From Denitromonas halophila (GTDB taxonomy: Bacteria; Pseudomonadota; Gammaproteobacteria; Burkholderiales; Rhodocyclaceae), in contig NZ_VMNK01000020.1 in the NCBI RefSeq assembly GCF_007625155.1, positions 1 to 56,267 on the forward strand: DNA of 56,267 nucleotides. The letters run 5' to 3'. The notes beneath the pieces are model-generated. The model saw only the letters and a list, made by a program, of their open reading frames with translations, was not told the origin of the DNA and did no database searches. Each line of letters opens with the position of its first letter. The first letter of the stretch is position 1. The position numbers were made by a program, and so were the translations under genes. Shown piece by piece: positions 20,447-26,001 of the stretch.

Positions 20447-21091
20447 ATGAAGCTCTACACTTATTTTCGCTCCTCGGCGGCCTACCGCGTCCGCATCGCG
20501 CTCAATCTCAAGGGCCTGCCCTGGGACGCCGCGGCGGTGCATCTGGCACGCGATGGCGGCGAGCAGCATTCGGACGCCTACCGGGCGGTGAATCCCGCCG
20601 AACTGGTGCCCACGCTCGAAGACCGCGGCGCCACGCTGACCCAGTCGCTGGCGATCATCGAGTACCTCGAAGAACTCCGCCCGCAACCGGCCTTGCTGCC
20701 GGGCAACCTGATCGCGCGGGCCCGGGTGCGGGCGATTGCGCAAGCGATTGCCTGCGATATTCACCCGATCAATAATCTGCGGGTGTTGCAATACCTGACC
20801 GGAGAAATGGGCCTGAGTGAAGACCAGAAGATGCAGTGGTATCGGCACTGGGTCGATACCGGTCTGGCGGCGGTCGAGGCCATGCTGGCCGAGCACCCCG
20901 ACACCGGCGTGTTCTGCCATGGCGACACCCCGGGCCTGGCCGATTGCTGTCTGGTGCCGCAGGTGTACAACGCGCGGCGCTTCAACTGCCGGCTCGATCA
21001 TGTGCCGACGGTGATGCGCATTGTCGAGGCCTGCGAGGGCTTGCCGGCCTTCCAGGCGGCATCGCCCGGCGCACAGGCGGATGCCGAGTAA
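20447..21091 (+). CDS. maiA: Maleylacetoacetate/maleylpyruvate isomerase (zeta-class GST)
   Basis: A 214-residue glutathione S-transferase-fold enzyme with the zeta-class motif SSAAYRVRIALN at residues 9-20 and DIHPINNLRVLQYL near 105. These enzymes use glutathione to convert maleylacetoacetate or maleylpyruvate to the fumaryl isomer. The AGGAGA ribosome site lies 7 nt before the ATG. Together with the FAH-family gene in the same operon, it defines a maleyl-to-fumaryl-to-hydrolysis route. Whether the substrate comes from homogentisate, gentisate or another ring cannot be decided here. Confidence 0.92.
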   Translation: MKLYTYFRSSAAYRVRIALNLKGLPWDAAAVHLARDGGEQHSDAYRAVNPAELVPTLEDRGATLTQSLAIIEYLEELRPQPALLPGNLIARARVRAIAQAIACDIHPINNLRVLQYLTGEMGLSEDQKMQWYRHWVDTGLAAVEAMLAEHPDTGVFCHGDTPGLADCCLVPQVYNARRFNCRLDHVPTVMRIVEACEGLPAFQAASPGAQADAE

Positions 21092-22292
21092 GCCCGATGT
21101 GCAGGCGGTGCCCGGGTTGGGCATCGCCATCCTGTTGACCACGCTGGTGGCGCTGGGGCCGCTGTCGACCGACTTCTACCTGCCGTCGCTGCCCGCCATG
21201 ACCGCGGCGCTGGGCACCGATGTGGCCGGTACCCAGCTGACGCTGTCGATTTTTTTGGGCGGGTTCGCCGTCGGTCAGCTGTTCTACGGGCCGTTGTCCG
21301 ACCGCTTCGGTCGCCGCCCGCTGATGCTCGCCGGGCTGATCATCTTTCTTGCCGCCAGCATTGCCTGCGCGCTCGCGCCCAATATCGAGACCTTGATCGC
21401 CGCGCGCTTTGTGCAGGCCATCGGCGCCTGTGCCGGGCCGGTGCTGGGGCGCACGGTGGTGCGTGACCTCTACGGCCCGAAAGACTCGGCGCGCATGCTG
21501 TCGTACATCTCGGCTGCGATGGCGCTGGCGCCGCTGCTCGGGCCGGTGTTCGGCGGCTGGCTGTCGGTAGCCTTCAGCTGGCGGGCGACCTTTGTTTTCC
21601 TCATCATCTACTCGGCCTTGCAAACCGCCGCGACCTGGCAACTGCTTGCCGAGAGCAACCGGCACCCCGACCCCACGGCCATACAGCCGCGGCGCATCCT
21701 GGCCAACTACGCCACGCTGTTGCGCGACACCACCTACCGCGGGGTGCTGCTGTGCAACGGTCTGGCCTATGCCGGCATGTTCGCCTTCATTTCCGGCGCG
21801 CCCTTCGTGTTCATCAACCTGTTCGGCTTCAGTCCACAGACCATGGGTCTGGCCTTCGGGTTGATGGTGTCGGGTTTCATCACCGGCACCATGTCGTCCG
21901 GCCGTCTGGCCTCGCGTCACGGGCCGGATGTGATCCTGACCGCGGGCGTGGTGGTCGGCAGTGCGGGCGGTGTGGTGATGCTGGCCCTGGCGCTGACTGG
22001 TTGGCAGCACCCGGCGGCGATCATGGTGCCCATGTGGCTGGTGACCTGCGGCATCGGCTTCATCATGCCCAACGCCACGGCCATTGCGCTCGCGCCGTGG
22101 CCGACCATGGCCGGTGCCGCCGCCTCGCTGATGGGCTTCTCGCAAATGGCGCTGGCTGCGGCCTTCGGTATCTTTGTCGGTCACAGCTTTACGGATTCCA
22201 CCGTGCCCATGGCCGCCGCCATTTCGGCCGGCATGGGCGGTTCGCTGCTCAGTTATCTTTTGTGGGTGCGTCCGGCCAGCCGACGCGCCTGA
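21081..22292 (+). CDS. Bcr/CflA-type MFS drug-efflux transporter
   Basis: A 403-residue, 12-helix major facilitator. Signatures are STDFYLPSLPAM in helix 1, the motif-A loop YGPLSDRFGRRP, and RFVQAIGACAGPVLGR. Bcr/CflA proteins export drugs or small metabolites by proton antiport. ATG 21081 overlaps the end of maiA by 11 nt, so the gene is coupled to the catabolic operon and may relieve toxicity of an intermediate. The substrate is unknown. Confidence 0.9.
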   Translation: MPSKPDVQAVPGLGIAILLTTLVALGPLSTDFYLPSLPAMTAALGTDVAGTQLTLSIFLGGFAVGQLFYGPLSDRFGRRPLMLAGLIIFLAASIACALAPNIETLIAARFVQAIGACAGPVLGRTVVRDLYGPKDSARMLSYISAAMALAPLLGPVFGGWLSVAFSWRATFVFLIIYSALQTAATWQLLAESNRHPDPTAIQPRRILANYATLLRDTTYRGVLLCNGLAYAGMFAFISGAPFVFINLFGFSPQTMGLAFGLMVSGFITGTMSSGRLASRHGPDVILTAGVVVGSAGGVVMLALALTGWQHPAAIMVPMWLVTCGIGFIMPNATAIALAPWPTMAGAAASLMGFSQMALAAAFGIFVGHSFTDSTVPMAAAISAGMGGSLLSYLLWVRPASRRA

Positions 22293-23180: not shown

Positions 23181-23227
23181 AACAAGAAATGCCGGCTCGT
23201 GTGTAAGGAATCGGAAAAAGCGGCGGT

Positions 23228-23255
23228 CTGTCAGGTGAGTCCGCTGTTTTGACAG
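23228..23255. promoter_or_regulatory. Inverted repeat upstream of the Cys-repeat protein gene
   Basis: CTGTCA (23228-23233), N16, TGACAG (23250-23255): a perfect 6-bp inverted repeat 57 nt before the ATG of the small cysteine-repeat gene. Upstream, a GGAAT (about 23208) and a GTC 14 nt later vaguely resemble an ECF sigma-factor promoter. Both are candidates for metal- or redox-responsive control; neither is proven. Confidence 0.4.
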
Positions 23256-23312
23256 TGGGCGAAAGCGGCAAACACAAACCGCAAACCACCATTTTGAGAC
23301 CTGGAGATTCAC

Positions 23313-23567
23313 ATGACCAAGAACCCGACCGCTCGCAAGCTCGCCACCGCCTTTGTCGCCGCTGGTCTGATGGCCGCTGGCAGCATGGCCTACGCCACCT
23401 GCGCGCCGAAGAAAGGCGCCTGCTCGGCACAGCACCCGTGCGCTGCCAAAAAGAACCCCTGTGCCGCCAATCCTTGCGCGGCGAAAAACCCCTGCGCGGC
23501 GAAGAATCCGTGTGCTGCCAAGAATCCTTGCGCGGCGAAAAACCCCTGCGCAGCCAAGAAGATGTAA
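23313..23567 (+). CDS. Exported cysteine hexapeptide-repeat protein (NPCAAK repeats)
   Basis: An 84-residue protein: a signal peptide (residues 1-28, ending MAYA) followed by a 56-residue mature part containing nine cysteines. Six are in NPCAA(K) units, of which the last five are tandem NPCAAK copies encoded by 18-bp repeats with varied third bases. One further unit is HPCAAK. The gene has a GGAGA ribosome site about 7 nt before the ATG. Lys and Cys dominate and aromatic residues are absent from the mature chain, so a compact fold is unlikely without bound metal or disulfides. It is followed 162 nt later by a cytochrome c with the same repeats. I know no described family; a periplasmic metal-buffering or thiol-redox protein is a reasonable guess. 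Confidence 0.82.
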   Translation: MTKNPTARKLATAFVAAGLMAAGSMAYATCAPKKGACSAQHPCAAKKNPCAANPCAAKNPCAAKNPCAAKNPCAAKNPCAAKKM

Positions 23568-23729
23568 TTAGGCCGCCCGCCAAGGTCGCGATGATCGGCT
23601 TGGCGGGCCTCGCCGCTTGCCCTGGCGTGCGAGCACGCCGGGGCAAGTTCGTTCTTGTTCGGCGCCTGTTGGCCATGTCGGCGCAAGCGGCGTTGAATGA
23701 ACCACCCCCAGAGAGAACGGGAGAGACCC

Positions 23730-24434
23730 ATGGCACAGGTATCAACACCCCATACCCTGGTCGCGGCCATGCTGGCTACCGGCTTGATGACCGCGGGTGG
23801 CGCCGCTTTGGCCGCCGCGCCGTGCAGTCCATGCAGTGCCCGTGACCGCAAAGCCTGGTCGGCCAAAAACCCCTGCGCGGCAAAAAACCCCTGCGCCGCG
23901 AGAAACCCCTGCGCGGCAAGGAATCCGTGTACAGCCAATCCGTGCGTCGCCAAAGCTCCCAACCCCTGTGCCGCCAAGGCGATCACGCGCCCGGCCGGTT
24001 ATGTCCCGATGAAGGGCGACGCCACGCGTGGTGAGGCGGTCTTCAATGACACCCAGCTGTCTACCAACGGCTTGTCGTGCAATAGCTGCCATACCGGCGG
24101 CGCCGCCTACAAGGCCAGCTTTGCCCAGCCCTATCCGCATCCGGTGCAGATGGCCATGGACCACTACGGCATGACGCAGATCCACCTCGATGAGATGGTG
24201 CAGCTGTGCATGGTGCGCCCGATGGCGGCGCAGCCGCTGGACTGGAAGTCGCGCGAACTGGCCGATCTGGTGGCCTACGTGAGCATGGTGCAAAAAGGCT
24301 ACAAGCCCAATCCCTGCGCTGCGAAGAATCCATGTGCCGCCAATCCCGGCGCCGCCCGGAATCCGTGTGCAGCAAAGAACCCGTGTGCTGCCCGCAATCC
24401 GTGCGCTGCGAAGAGTCCCTGCAAAGCATCCTGA
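23730..24434 (+). CDS. Monohaem cytochrome c flanked by NPCAAK cysteine repeats
   Basis: A 234-residue exported protein with a signal peptide (about residues 1-29, ending LAAA). The N-terminal repeat zone has six NPC units (NPCAAK, NPCAAR, NPCTA, NPCVAK types). A cytochrome c domain of about 110 residues carries the haem motif CNSCH, with likely axial Met from the downstream QLCMVRPMAAQP segment. The C-terminal zone has six more Cys units, including a terminal SPC, and one NPG unit where Cys became Gly. The ATG at 23730 follows GGAGAG; an ATG at 23697 would add eleven charged residues before the signal. It pairs with the preceding repeat protein. Electron transfer to or from a polythiol or metal-loaded tail is an attractive but untested idea. 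Confidence 0.85.
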   Translation: MAQVSTPHTLVAAMLATGLMTAGGAALAAAPCSPCSARDRKAWSAKNPCAAKNPCAARNPCAARNPCTANPCVAKAPNPCAAKAITRPAGYVPMKGDATRGEAVFNDTQLSTNGLSCNSCHTGGAAYKASFAQPYPHPVQMAMDHYGMTQIHLDEMVQLCMVRPMAAQPLDWKSRELADLVAYVSMVQKGYKPNPCAAKNPCAANPGAARNPCAAKNPCAARNPCAAKSPCKAS

Positions 24435-24484
24435 GCTTGATCCGGCCCGCTGTCGCCGCTATTGTCGGCATGACGGCGCGCTGA

Positions 24485-24519
24485 ACATCGGGCGCCTGAG
24501 GGCGCCCGATGTGTGTTTT
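24485..24519 (+). terminator. Rho-independent terminator
   Basis: ACATCGGGCGCC, TGAG, GGCGCCCGATGT is a perfect 12-bp stem with a tetraloop, followed by GTGTTTT. It lies 50 nt after the cytochrome gene and ends the cysteine-repeat locus. Confidence 0.85.
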
Positions 24520-24614: not shown

Positions 24615-25346
24615 ATGTCTTCGACGCTTCGACTGGATGACTATCTGCCCGATCTGGCGGGTATTCCGCGTGCCCGGCGCATGCAGATGCAGGCGGCCGC
24701 GCGTGACATCGAGGAGTGCTATCGGGTCTTGCGCAAGGGCGGTCTGAATGTGGTGGGCGAGGTGCTGCGCGGTGGGGGCGAGTTCGTCGAACTGGCGCAC
24801 TATCCGGCCGACGATGTGTATGACCGCGACACCCATGGTCAGTATTACTATCACGCCCATCGCGGCGTCGACGCCGAGCATGGCCATTTCCATACCTTTG
24901 TGCGCGCCGGTGGCGTGCCCGATGGCCGAGTGCCGTTGGCGGTGCCACATGCCAGCGAAGCCCGTCCGACCGGCGATGCGGCGATCTGCCACCTGATTGC
25001 GGTGTCGATGGATGGCTGGGGCTACCCGTCAGGCTTGTTCACCACCAACCGCTGGGTGACCGACGAGTCCTGGTATGCCGCCGACGACGCCATCGCCATC
25101 CTGCAACACTTCGAGATCGATCACGCCTTCCCCTCGTGGCCGACCAATCGCTGGCTGACGGCCTTGCTGCGCTTGTACGGGCCGCAGATCGAGGGCCTGT
25201 TGCGCCATCGCGACGCGGTCATGTCCGATTGCCAGCGCGACCGGCCGGGCGACGATGTCTACGAAGATCGCAATATTGATGTAATCGGCTACCTGCCGAT
25301 CGCCGTCGACACCTTTGCCGCGGCGCTGACCGAGTCTCTGCGCTGA
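24615..25346 (+). CDS. Conserved hypothetical protein with His cluster (DUF6969-like)
   Basis: A 243-residue cytoplasmic-looking protein with no signal peptide. The striking part is residues 74-93, with histidines at 74, 80, 82, 89, 91 and 93 (YYYHAHR and EHGHFHTF), a likely metal-binding cluster. A Trp/Asn-rich TTNRWVTDE and PTNRWLTALL follow. I associate this pattern with DUF6969 from memory and with limited confidence. It has a GAGGAGG ribosome site and stands alone between two terminators. The enzymatic role is unknown. Confidence 0.8.
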   Translation: MSSTLRLDDYLPDLAGIPRARRMQMQAAARDIEECYRVLRKGGLNVVGEVLRGGGEFVELAHYPADDVYDRDTHGQYYYHAHRGVDAEHGHFHTFVRAGGVPDGRVPLAVPHASEARPTGDAAICHLIAVSMDGWGYPSGLFTTNRWVTDESWYAADDAIAILQHFEIDHAFPSWPTNRWLTALLRLYGPQIEGLLRHRDAVMSDCQRDRPGDDVYEDRNIDVIGYLPIAVDTFAAALTESLR

Positions 25347-25412: not shown

Positions 25413-25871
25413 TTAACGCACCACCAGCTTGTAGTCGGGGGTGGGGTTCAGCGGGCAGGAATAGACATATTCGCCGGCCTTGAGCTCGATCTCGTAGTCC
25501 TGCGTCTTGCCGGTGACCAGCCCGCCGCCAGACACGCTGGGCAGCAGGGCGCGGGCGGCCAGGCCGTCGCCGCGCAGCCAGAAACCGAGCTCGTAAGGCA
25601 CGTTCTGGTTGCTGACCCGGAAGACGTAGCGGCCGGGTTGGAGGTTCAGCACCTTGGCCTCGGCCAGGCGCTTGTCGCCGGTTTCGGCATTGATCTTGCG
25701 GCAATCGTCGGCCGTCATGGGGGTGTAGCCGCGATTGATGTCGTGCTCGCTTTCGAGAAACTGGCAGCCGACCTGATTCAAGTGGATCACGGTGGGTTCA
25801 GCGGCTGCCTGGGCGGTGCCCATGCCGAGCGCCAACAGGGCCGCGGTGAGGGGAAGGTGGAAGTGTTTCAT
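25413..25871 (-). CDS. Exported cupredoxin-like hypothetical protein
   Basis: A 152-residue protein with a signal peptide (MKHFHLPLTA, cleavage after AQA near residue 22). The C-terminal strand pattern (YEIELKAGEYVYSCP, then YKLVV) resembles the end of cupredoxins, where a Cys binds copper. Cys139 fits, and Cys36 and Cys57 are also present. A clear downstream Cu-ligand His/Met is not seen, so copper binding is uncertain. The start at 25871 has AGGAGA upstream; a longer frame starting at 26012 lacks this. It stands alone and ends at a terminator. Confidence 0.8.
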   Translation of the reverse strand: MKHFHLPLTAALLALGMGTAQAAAEPTVIHLNQVGCQFLESEHDINRGYTPMTADDCRKINAETGDKRLAEAKVLNLQPGRYVFRVSNQNVPYELGFWLRGDGLAARALLPSVSGGGLVTGKTQDYEIELKAGEYVYSCPLNPTPDYKLVVR

Positions 25872-26001
25872 GGCGGGGTCTCCTGGACATCGGGCAGGCG
25901 GGGCTGCCGGGGTGTTGGGGCGTCCGTTCAGGGCGCTGTCAGGGAGATAGACCCGGCTGAGCTGGCAATGCTTACGGTCGGCGCTCAAAAACAATGACGC
26001 G

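Follow-up and report, generated by a model that had tools for sequence, protein, structure and literature searches.

Exported cysteine-array proteins, some fused to haem domains, and their DUF6969 neighbour in Denitromonas halophila and other bacteria

Metallothioneins are small, cysteine-dense proteins of low complexity, and SoxY presents a single carrier cysteine on its arm; we know of no cysteine arrays in TsdA. According to the sections of PMC6879331 that describe TsdA catalysis, the Heme 1 ligand Cys96 is required for activity and is modified by exposure to substrate, with some forms carrying extra sulfur. The proteins described here combine exported cysteine repeats with haem. An initial annotation of the locus knew of no described family with this array layout, and none was found in the open-access literature, where we also found no paper on DUF6969 or on a system of arrays, haem and DUF6969; as far as that literature shows, the system is undescribed. 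Many bacteria export proteins that consist almost wholly of a repeated cysteine motif, some of them fused to haem domains and usually encoded near a DUF6969 gene. These arrays look like an undescribed means by which cells deal with sulfur or metals beyond the inner membrane.

The Denitromonas locus and its repeats

The window, by which we mean the whole 56,267-nucleotide stretch of D. halophila DNA that was analysed, contains the following features at the array locus:

23313..23567, + strand: small exported cysteine-array protein (84 aa, 9 Cys, NPCAAK units) with a Sec-type N-terminal signal peptide, as judged by eye
23568..23648, + strand: two strong RNA hairpins between the array genes, the second with a T-rich tail
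23730..24434, + strand: array-cytochrome, consisting of a signal peptide, a cysteine array (8 Cys), a SoxA/TsdA-type monohaem domain and a second cysteine array (6 Cys)
23982..24308, + strand: haem domain, with CNSCH and an invariant cysteine whose alignment with SoxA makes it a candidate axial ligand
24485..24512, + strand: terminator-like hairpin 3′ of the cytochrome gene (z −5.4)
24615..25346, + strand: third gene, DUF6969 (PF22308; Pfam 3.6e-80), with no signal peptide recognised by eye
25413..25874, − strand: cupredoxin-like protein with a signal peptide by eye (Pfam match E 0.012, below cut-off)

The length and cysteine count of the small protein come from a recount of its ORF, which bears out its initial description as mostly NPCAAK-type repeats after a signal peptide. 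The array-cytochrome ORF encodes 234 aa, or 245 aa if translation began at an in-frame ATG at position 23697. Its 17 cysteines comprise eight in the array before the haem (six in NPC units, one in APC and one in SPC), two in the single CXXCH motif (CNSCH, residues 117–121), one elsewhere in the haem domain and six in the array after it (five in NPC units and one in SPC), where one further unit, NPGAAR, has no cysteine. The earlier view of a monohaem protein with six repeat cysteines on each side stands for the haem and for the trailing array, and the leading array gains two.

Units of the form NPCAA[KRN] are shared by the small protein and the cytochrome. All 15 units that match NPC[AT]A[KRN] are distinct at the DNA level, and across their first five codons the mean number of pairwise differences was 0.13 for first, 0.00 for second and 3.18 for third codon positions. 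Ratios of pN/pS against five distinct relatives (seven loci were compared, two of which were repeats of the same genomes) ranged from 0.06 to 0.26 for the arrays and from 0.14 to 0.62 for the haem domain; as misalignment of repeat units may inflate pS, only the low pN of the arrays is firm. The proposal that the repeat is selected at the protein level is upheld by these near-exclusive third-base differences and by the low pN. It had been suggested that a lack of homologues or a high dN/dS across the repeats would point to an artefact; homologues exist and the array ratios just given are low, which answers that objection.

The intergenic region at 23568–23660 has a predicted folding energy of −57 kcal/mol (z −5.6), and its hairpin pair is a possible attenuator or processing element. 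The tandem hairpins at 23568–23648 could set a higher yield of the small array protein. Because a terminator-like hairpin follows the cytochrome gene, DUF6969 may form a separate transcript at this locus. A gene for a Bcr/CflA-type MFS efflux transporter lies upstream of the array locus on the same strand (21021–22292). The small array protein recurs in Denitromonas ohlonensis (L117) with five DNA differences, and the window DUF6969 is 98% identical to the D. ohlonensis copy.

Distribution of the arrays and their haem domains

A search for NPCAA[KR] homologues, as first proposed for this locus, did recover array proteins: a degenerate pattern for NPCAAKNPCAA matched at least 116 array stretches. 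The 116 listed stretches are not 116 genomes (L074/L137, L079/L143, L101/L147 and L121/L164, for example, share a contig), and by our ORF rule 114 of them hold an array ORF (the exceptions are L124 and L141). Going by record names, the listed matches are mostly from alpha-, beta- and gammaproteobacteria and Rokubacteria, with a few from Nitrospinota, Deltaproteobacteria and Methylomirabilota and two from cyanobacteria, one of which has no array ORF. One cyanobacterial (Nostocales) stretch that matches the array pattern, L148:4709-6339, holds two short ORFs.

Gene calls in the relatives' loci are our own ORF picks, and the following architecture counts include truncated genes and spurious frames. 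Array ORFs lacking CXXCH occur in 78 of the 116 listed loci (150 aa or shorter in 65), an array-SoxA-type cytochrome in 48 and, by phmmer, an array-P460 protein in 22. The small array protein and the cytochrome, whose co-occurrence had been raised as a question, recur together: 20 of the 48 loci with the cytochrome also have a short array ORF. Among 300 genomes of the window's order, a 24-base array pattern matched 13 (nine with at least two hits and four with one each), and the reversed pattern matched none of the same 300; the array-cytochrome was found at E<1e-30 in 12 and at E≤0.001 in 52. Of ten genomes from the window's genus, six gave a strong match to the cytochrome, two gave array-like matches only and two gave neither.

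The type of the haem domain had been left unstated, and its likeness to SoxA and TsdA missed. It matches the Pfam family SoxA-TsdA_cyt-c (PF21342) at 7.7e-9 (35.9 bits, cut-off 27). A profile of 46 homologues searched against the PDB gave SoxA (1h31) as the best match at 4.2e-6, with the CXXCH and the later cysteine aligned. The predicted structure of the domain (pLDDT 95) returned TsdA and SoxA as top Foldseek hits with probability 1.00 and E-values of 5.7e-3 to 0.02, none of them at E≤0.001. Judged by sequence and structural model, the haem domain is of SoxA/TsdA type. Neither TsdA nor SoxA proper fits, however, since the domain has a single CXXCH and scores only 32.1 bits against the NCBIfam SoxA equivalog model, far under its cut-off of 110. 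The cysteine at residue 160 of the array-cytochrome is invariant in 46 of 46 aligned homologues and is paired by HMMER with the SoxA cysteine, which makes it a candidate axial ligand. C76, P80, L86 and W88 are invariant in this alignment and M81 is present in 45 of 46. We saw no conserved arginine at +13 or +23 from the cysteine, as in TsdA, among the 46 homologues; no arginine after the cysteine is invariant, and K or R occupies +15 in 38 of them.

Other loci join the arrays to a domain resembling cytochrome P460 (L080:3724-4914, L065, L092, L119, L145 and others), mostly in Alphaproteobacteria by record name and in some Rokubacteria. Pfam was applied to the L080 fusion, which scored 32.1 bits against a cut-off of 27. 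As P460 is a different Pfam family from the SoxA type, arrays and haem have apparently been joined at least twice; one type of cysteine array combined with two haem families makes up a widespread module.

DUF6969 and the gene neighbourhood

The third gene, a partner that the initial annotation missed, scores 268.7 bits against DUF6969 (cut-off 27). DUF6969 was found in 42 of 49 array genomes, which were drawn from the 116 listed loci with L081 left out, and in 11 of 299 phylum genomes (Fisher p 2e-36); the phylogeny of the two sets is unmatched, and this and the other co-occurrence p-values ignore kinship. In the 300 order genomes it was present in 20, including 10 of the 12 with a strong cytochrome match and eight of the nine array genomes. 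It lies near an array, that is within 2.5 kb, in 57 of the 114 listed loci, and was absent from the 157 kb of sequence at least 4 kb away, our far class. DUF6969 is the most frequent array neighbour found.

Conversely, 29 DUF6969 copies in the order and phylum samples had an exported cysteine-repeat neighbour in 18 cases by rule and in six more by eye (G042, G076, G102, G141, G225 and G230), leaving five with none (G132, G364, G428, which lies at a contig end, G506 and G580). The G132 copy is on a 7.7-kb contig that carries other operon genes. In control sets the neighbour rule was positive for one of eight tiles, which held another array gene, and for one of 24 unrelated loci, which proved to be the G037 array locus; no part of the window outside 22–27 kb was positive. 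The repeats beside DUF6969 include NPCAAK, NPCGP (L192–L197), KCAPK (L188, L190), KCGAK (L198, L199), PCVKTKAG (L191) and CCAAEG (L226). Because the repeat varies in this way, DUF6969 tracks exported cysteine repeats and not a single motif. Exported peptides of the last two kinds adjoin DUF6969 at L191:7376-7717 and L226:5679-5975, respectively. YeeE, DUF6969 and rhodanese genes stand in a row at L227:3463-6579 with no clear cysteine array.

As a known fold DUF6969 was rejected: its model (pLDDT 91.9) gave no Foldseek match in the PDB at E≤0.001 (best 0.83), and the sole PDB profile match, at E 0.23, was taken as chance. Eight residues (H80, H82, E88, H91, H93, H126, N145 and W147) are invariant in 40 aligned sequences, each of them from an array locus or from the window. 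The pattern HxH...EHGHFH, exact or near, was matched in seven of ten divergent copies, and those of L198 and L199 lack the invariant glutamate and keep both HxH motifs. This histidine/glutamate pattern suggests a putative metal site.

The fullest operons, L235 and L240, carry on one strand genes for an array-cytochrome, a small array protein, a C554-type multihaem cytochrome, DUF6969, a cupredoxin, DUF302 and a YeeE-type sulfur transporter (Sulf_transp); L244 is a P460 version on mixed strands and without the C554 gene. The window retains the array, the cytochrome, DUF6969 and a divergent cupredoxin, relatives of which recur in the fullest operons, and a DUF302-YeeE pair resembling the operon pair is encoded on a different contig of the window's genome. 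The window locus is a reduced copy of this undescribed system.

Near and far counts in the 114 listed loci were 18/0 for C554, 17/0 for cupredoxin, 17/1 for YeeE, 16/0 for FGE-like, 15/0 for DUF302, 18/3 for ECF sigma, 8/0 for CcdA, 8/2 for DUF3179 and 1/0 for MNIO; since no locus piece exceeds 8 kb and operons are often truncated by its ends, these are lower bounds. One-sided near-versus-far tests were modest or not significant for every neighbour but DUF6969 (YeeE 0.03, weak; CcdA 0.09 and ECF 0.15, neither significant), and enrichment of ECF sigma, DUF3179, CcdA and VTT genes was rejected on this basis. FGE-sulfatase-like genes (PF03781, tested for L165) occur beside arrays and DUF6969 in L165, L092, L150 and others (16 of 114 listed loci). 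CcdA and thioredoxin genes are both present in seven of the 48 SoxA-type loci.

Five of the six NPCGP loci beside DUF6969 have half-size YeeE/YedE genes (one half in L192 and two in each of L193–L196), and none was seen in L197. Such pairs resemble PmpA/PmpB as described in the relevant part of PMC11582611. L193–L196 also hold an ArsR gene; for the two that were tested the best NCBIfam model was BigR, at 96 and 110 bits (cut-off 155), and according to the part of PMC5823870 concerned with sensing, BigR responds to sulfide via two cysteines. A rhodanese gene is present in L193 (Pfam-tested), L195 and L196. The NPCAAK protein of L201:3868-6417 (genome G037) lies directly upstream of an MNIO-DUF2063-DoxX operon, in the position of a precursor, and this genome has no DUF6969.

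Proposed role and comparison with known systems

Our preferred reading, which we hold tentatively, is that the arrays carry sulfane sulfur in the periplasm on their many thiols and are coupled to a haem with putative His/Cys ligation. DUF6969, taken as cytoplasmic from its apparent lack of a signal peptide, would act on the arrays before Sec export, keeping the cysteines reduced or modifying them. In the periplasm the arrays would serve as flexible multi-site thiol carriers that load sulfane sulfur, as persulfide or derived from thiosulfate, in a role analogous to that of the SoxY cysteine with many sites per molecule. The SoxA/TsdA-type haem, tethered between two arrays, would then couple sulfur oxidatively to the thiols and hand electrons to the cupredoxin and the C554-type multihaem cytochrome. 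Thioredoxin and CcdA, where present, could reset the arrays, and the YeeE/SoxT-like transporter could import sulfur. The sequences show the arrays and the selection on them, the type of haem domain, the operon context and the association with DUF6969; from these we infer every chemical step.

A sulfane-sulfur carrier would jointly explain the SoxA/TsdA-type haem, YeeE, rhodanese, the BigR-like regulator and CcdA/thioredoxin, and these sulfur-related neighbours make it at least as likely as a metal buffer. Also in its favour are the invariant cysteine of the haem domain, the modifiable ligand cysteine of TsdA, and SoxB, which is over its cut-off more often in array genomes (19 of 49) than in phylum genomes (32 of 249; Fisher p 9e-5, ignoring kinship). 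Several observations stand against it. SoxB does not exceed the cut-off in the other 30 array genomes, and the window's genome has none; there is thus no obligatory link to the classical Sox pathway, which was rejected for the window's genome on the absence of SoxB alone. The arrays of 22 of the 116 listed loci are attached to a P460-like cytochrome domain, not to a sulfur haem, and MNIO operons are close by in five genomes. The YeeE and multihaem proteins that were tested score better with selenium and tellurium NCBIfam models, all below cut-off. Finally, the haem domain is far below the NCBIfam SoxA cut-off, and TsdA-like arginines are not evident.

The initial annotation offered a periplasmic metal buffer with redox coupling as one possibility. 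In its bufferin-like form, with the arrays chelating soft metals (Cu(I), also Zn, Cd or Hg) through many thiols, haem and cupredoxin providing copper redox control and DUF6969 replacing MNIO as maturase or chaperone, this is the main rival, possible though rather unlikely. Cysteine density combined with Sec-type export is consistent with it, as are the cupredoxin-like genes of 17 of the 114 listed loci and the one adjoining the window locus. Of the same 114, 18 have ECF sigma genes nearby, against three in the far class; these point the same way, but with the non-significant p of 0.15 given above. In five genomes (L201, L203, L240, L241 and L242) an MNIO-DUF2063-DoxX operon lies no more than about 8 kb from an array; these operons, and the NPCAAK protein directly upstream of MNIO in L201, whose genome is without DUF6969, argue for a metal role. 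Against it, MNIO is absent from the window's genome. MNIO (PF05114) is moreover not enriched (15 of 49 array genomes versus 76 of 249 phylum genomes) and lies within 2.5 kb in one of 114 listed loci, so that it was rejected as a general partner. Further hints of a metal role, seen by eye only, are genes resembling those for mercury resistance in L203 and P-type ATPase-like genes next to the cysteine-repeat genes in both L198 and L199; visual inspection of 40 listed neighbour clusters recognised no metal export pump. What survives of the buffer proposal is the support from cupredoxin, ECF and the five nearby MNIO operons, set against the missing and unenriched MNIO.

The alternative first raised alongside it, a thiol-disulfide redox buffer or polythiol wire in which arrays form disulfides, the haem takes electrons and CcdA/thioredoxin re-reduces, is improbable. 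The architecture, with haem tethered between arrays, is in keeping with a wire and nothing past it gives direct support: CcdA and thioredoxin co-occur in seven SoxA-type loci but were not seen in the other 41 (8-kb pieces, partly cut) or near the window locus, and YeeE, DUF302 and DUF6969 would go unexplained. Handling of selenium or tellurium oxyanions, with arrays binding or carrying reduced chalcogen, is very unlikely. It draws on NCBIfam matches of the L240 YeeE to selen_YedE_FdhT (107 bits, cut-off 350), the L240 multihaem protein to ExtKL (55, cut-off 250) and the L193 rhodanese to ExtH (70, cut-off 200), every one far below cut-off; the best model for that rhodanese is 3-mercaptopyruvate sulfurtransferase (81, cut-off 250). 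Repeat slippage yielding a functionless low-complexity artefact, which tandem units of variable number might suggest, is ruled out for practical purposes by the 15 of 15 DNA-distinct units with nearly all differences at third bases, the low pN of the arrays, homologues with NPCAAK-type units under many phylum and class names, the two different haem families that carry arrays and the co-occurrence with DUF6969.

If the arrays do carry sulfane sulfur, they would correspond to SoxY with many sites in place of one, and they may account for some YeeE/SoxT-like genes outside sox clusters. A bolder and rather doubtful proposal is that DUF6969 might be a metalloenzyme of a new kind whose targets for modification are the cysteines of exported arrays, whatever their repeat; the products would be MNIO-independent, haem-tethered RiPP-like polymers that carry periplasmic sulfur or metal. 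G037, which lacks DUF6969, has MNIO next to the array, as might be expected if either enzyme could stand in for the other; this single case hints that arrays are modified and that DUF6969 is perhaps an alternative maturase. If arrays are modified, DUF6969 would represent a new class of peptide-modifying enzyme. DUF6969, on which we found no paper and for which the PDB offered no matching fold, gains a testable role.

Metallothioneins resemble the small array protein in being small, cysteine-dense and of low complexity, whereas the arrays are exported, have no Pfam match, are built from a periodic proline-containing unit, can be fused to haem and have DUF6969 as partner. The small protein matched no Pfam or NCBIfam family, including any precursor or metallothionein model. 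TsdA is the nearest solved fold of the haem domain, but as described in part of PMC6879331 it is dihaem, in contrast to the single CXXCH of the array-cytochrome, and equivalents of its Arg109 and Arg119 are not evident here. Bufferins and other MNIO-modified exported cysteine peptides, as the main text of PMC12452194 presents them, likewise have an exported cysteine-rich precursor with a signal peptide adjoining a partner gene; ECF sigma genes lie near some loci, and five genomes hold both systems within about 8 kb. Our locus differs in the lack of MNIO in the window's genome, in its DUF6969 partner without a PDB fold match, in its haem fusions and in its NPC units, and the portions of that main text considered make no mention of cytochrome, DUF6969, CcdA, SoxA, thioredoxin or NPC. 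SoxAX/SoxYZ with SoxT, as outlined in part of PMC11582611, shares with the array loci a SoxA-type haem with a candidate ligand cysteine, a cysteine carrier and a YeeE-like transporter, sometimes with CcdA/thioredoxin; in the system described here, the haem protein is monohaem, SoxB is missing from the window's genome and the proposed carrier is an array of many cysteines.
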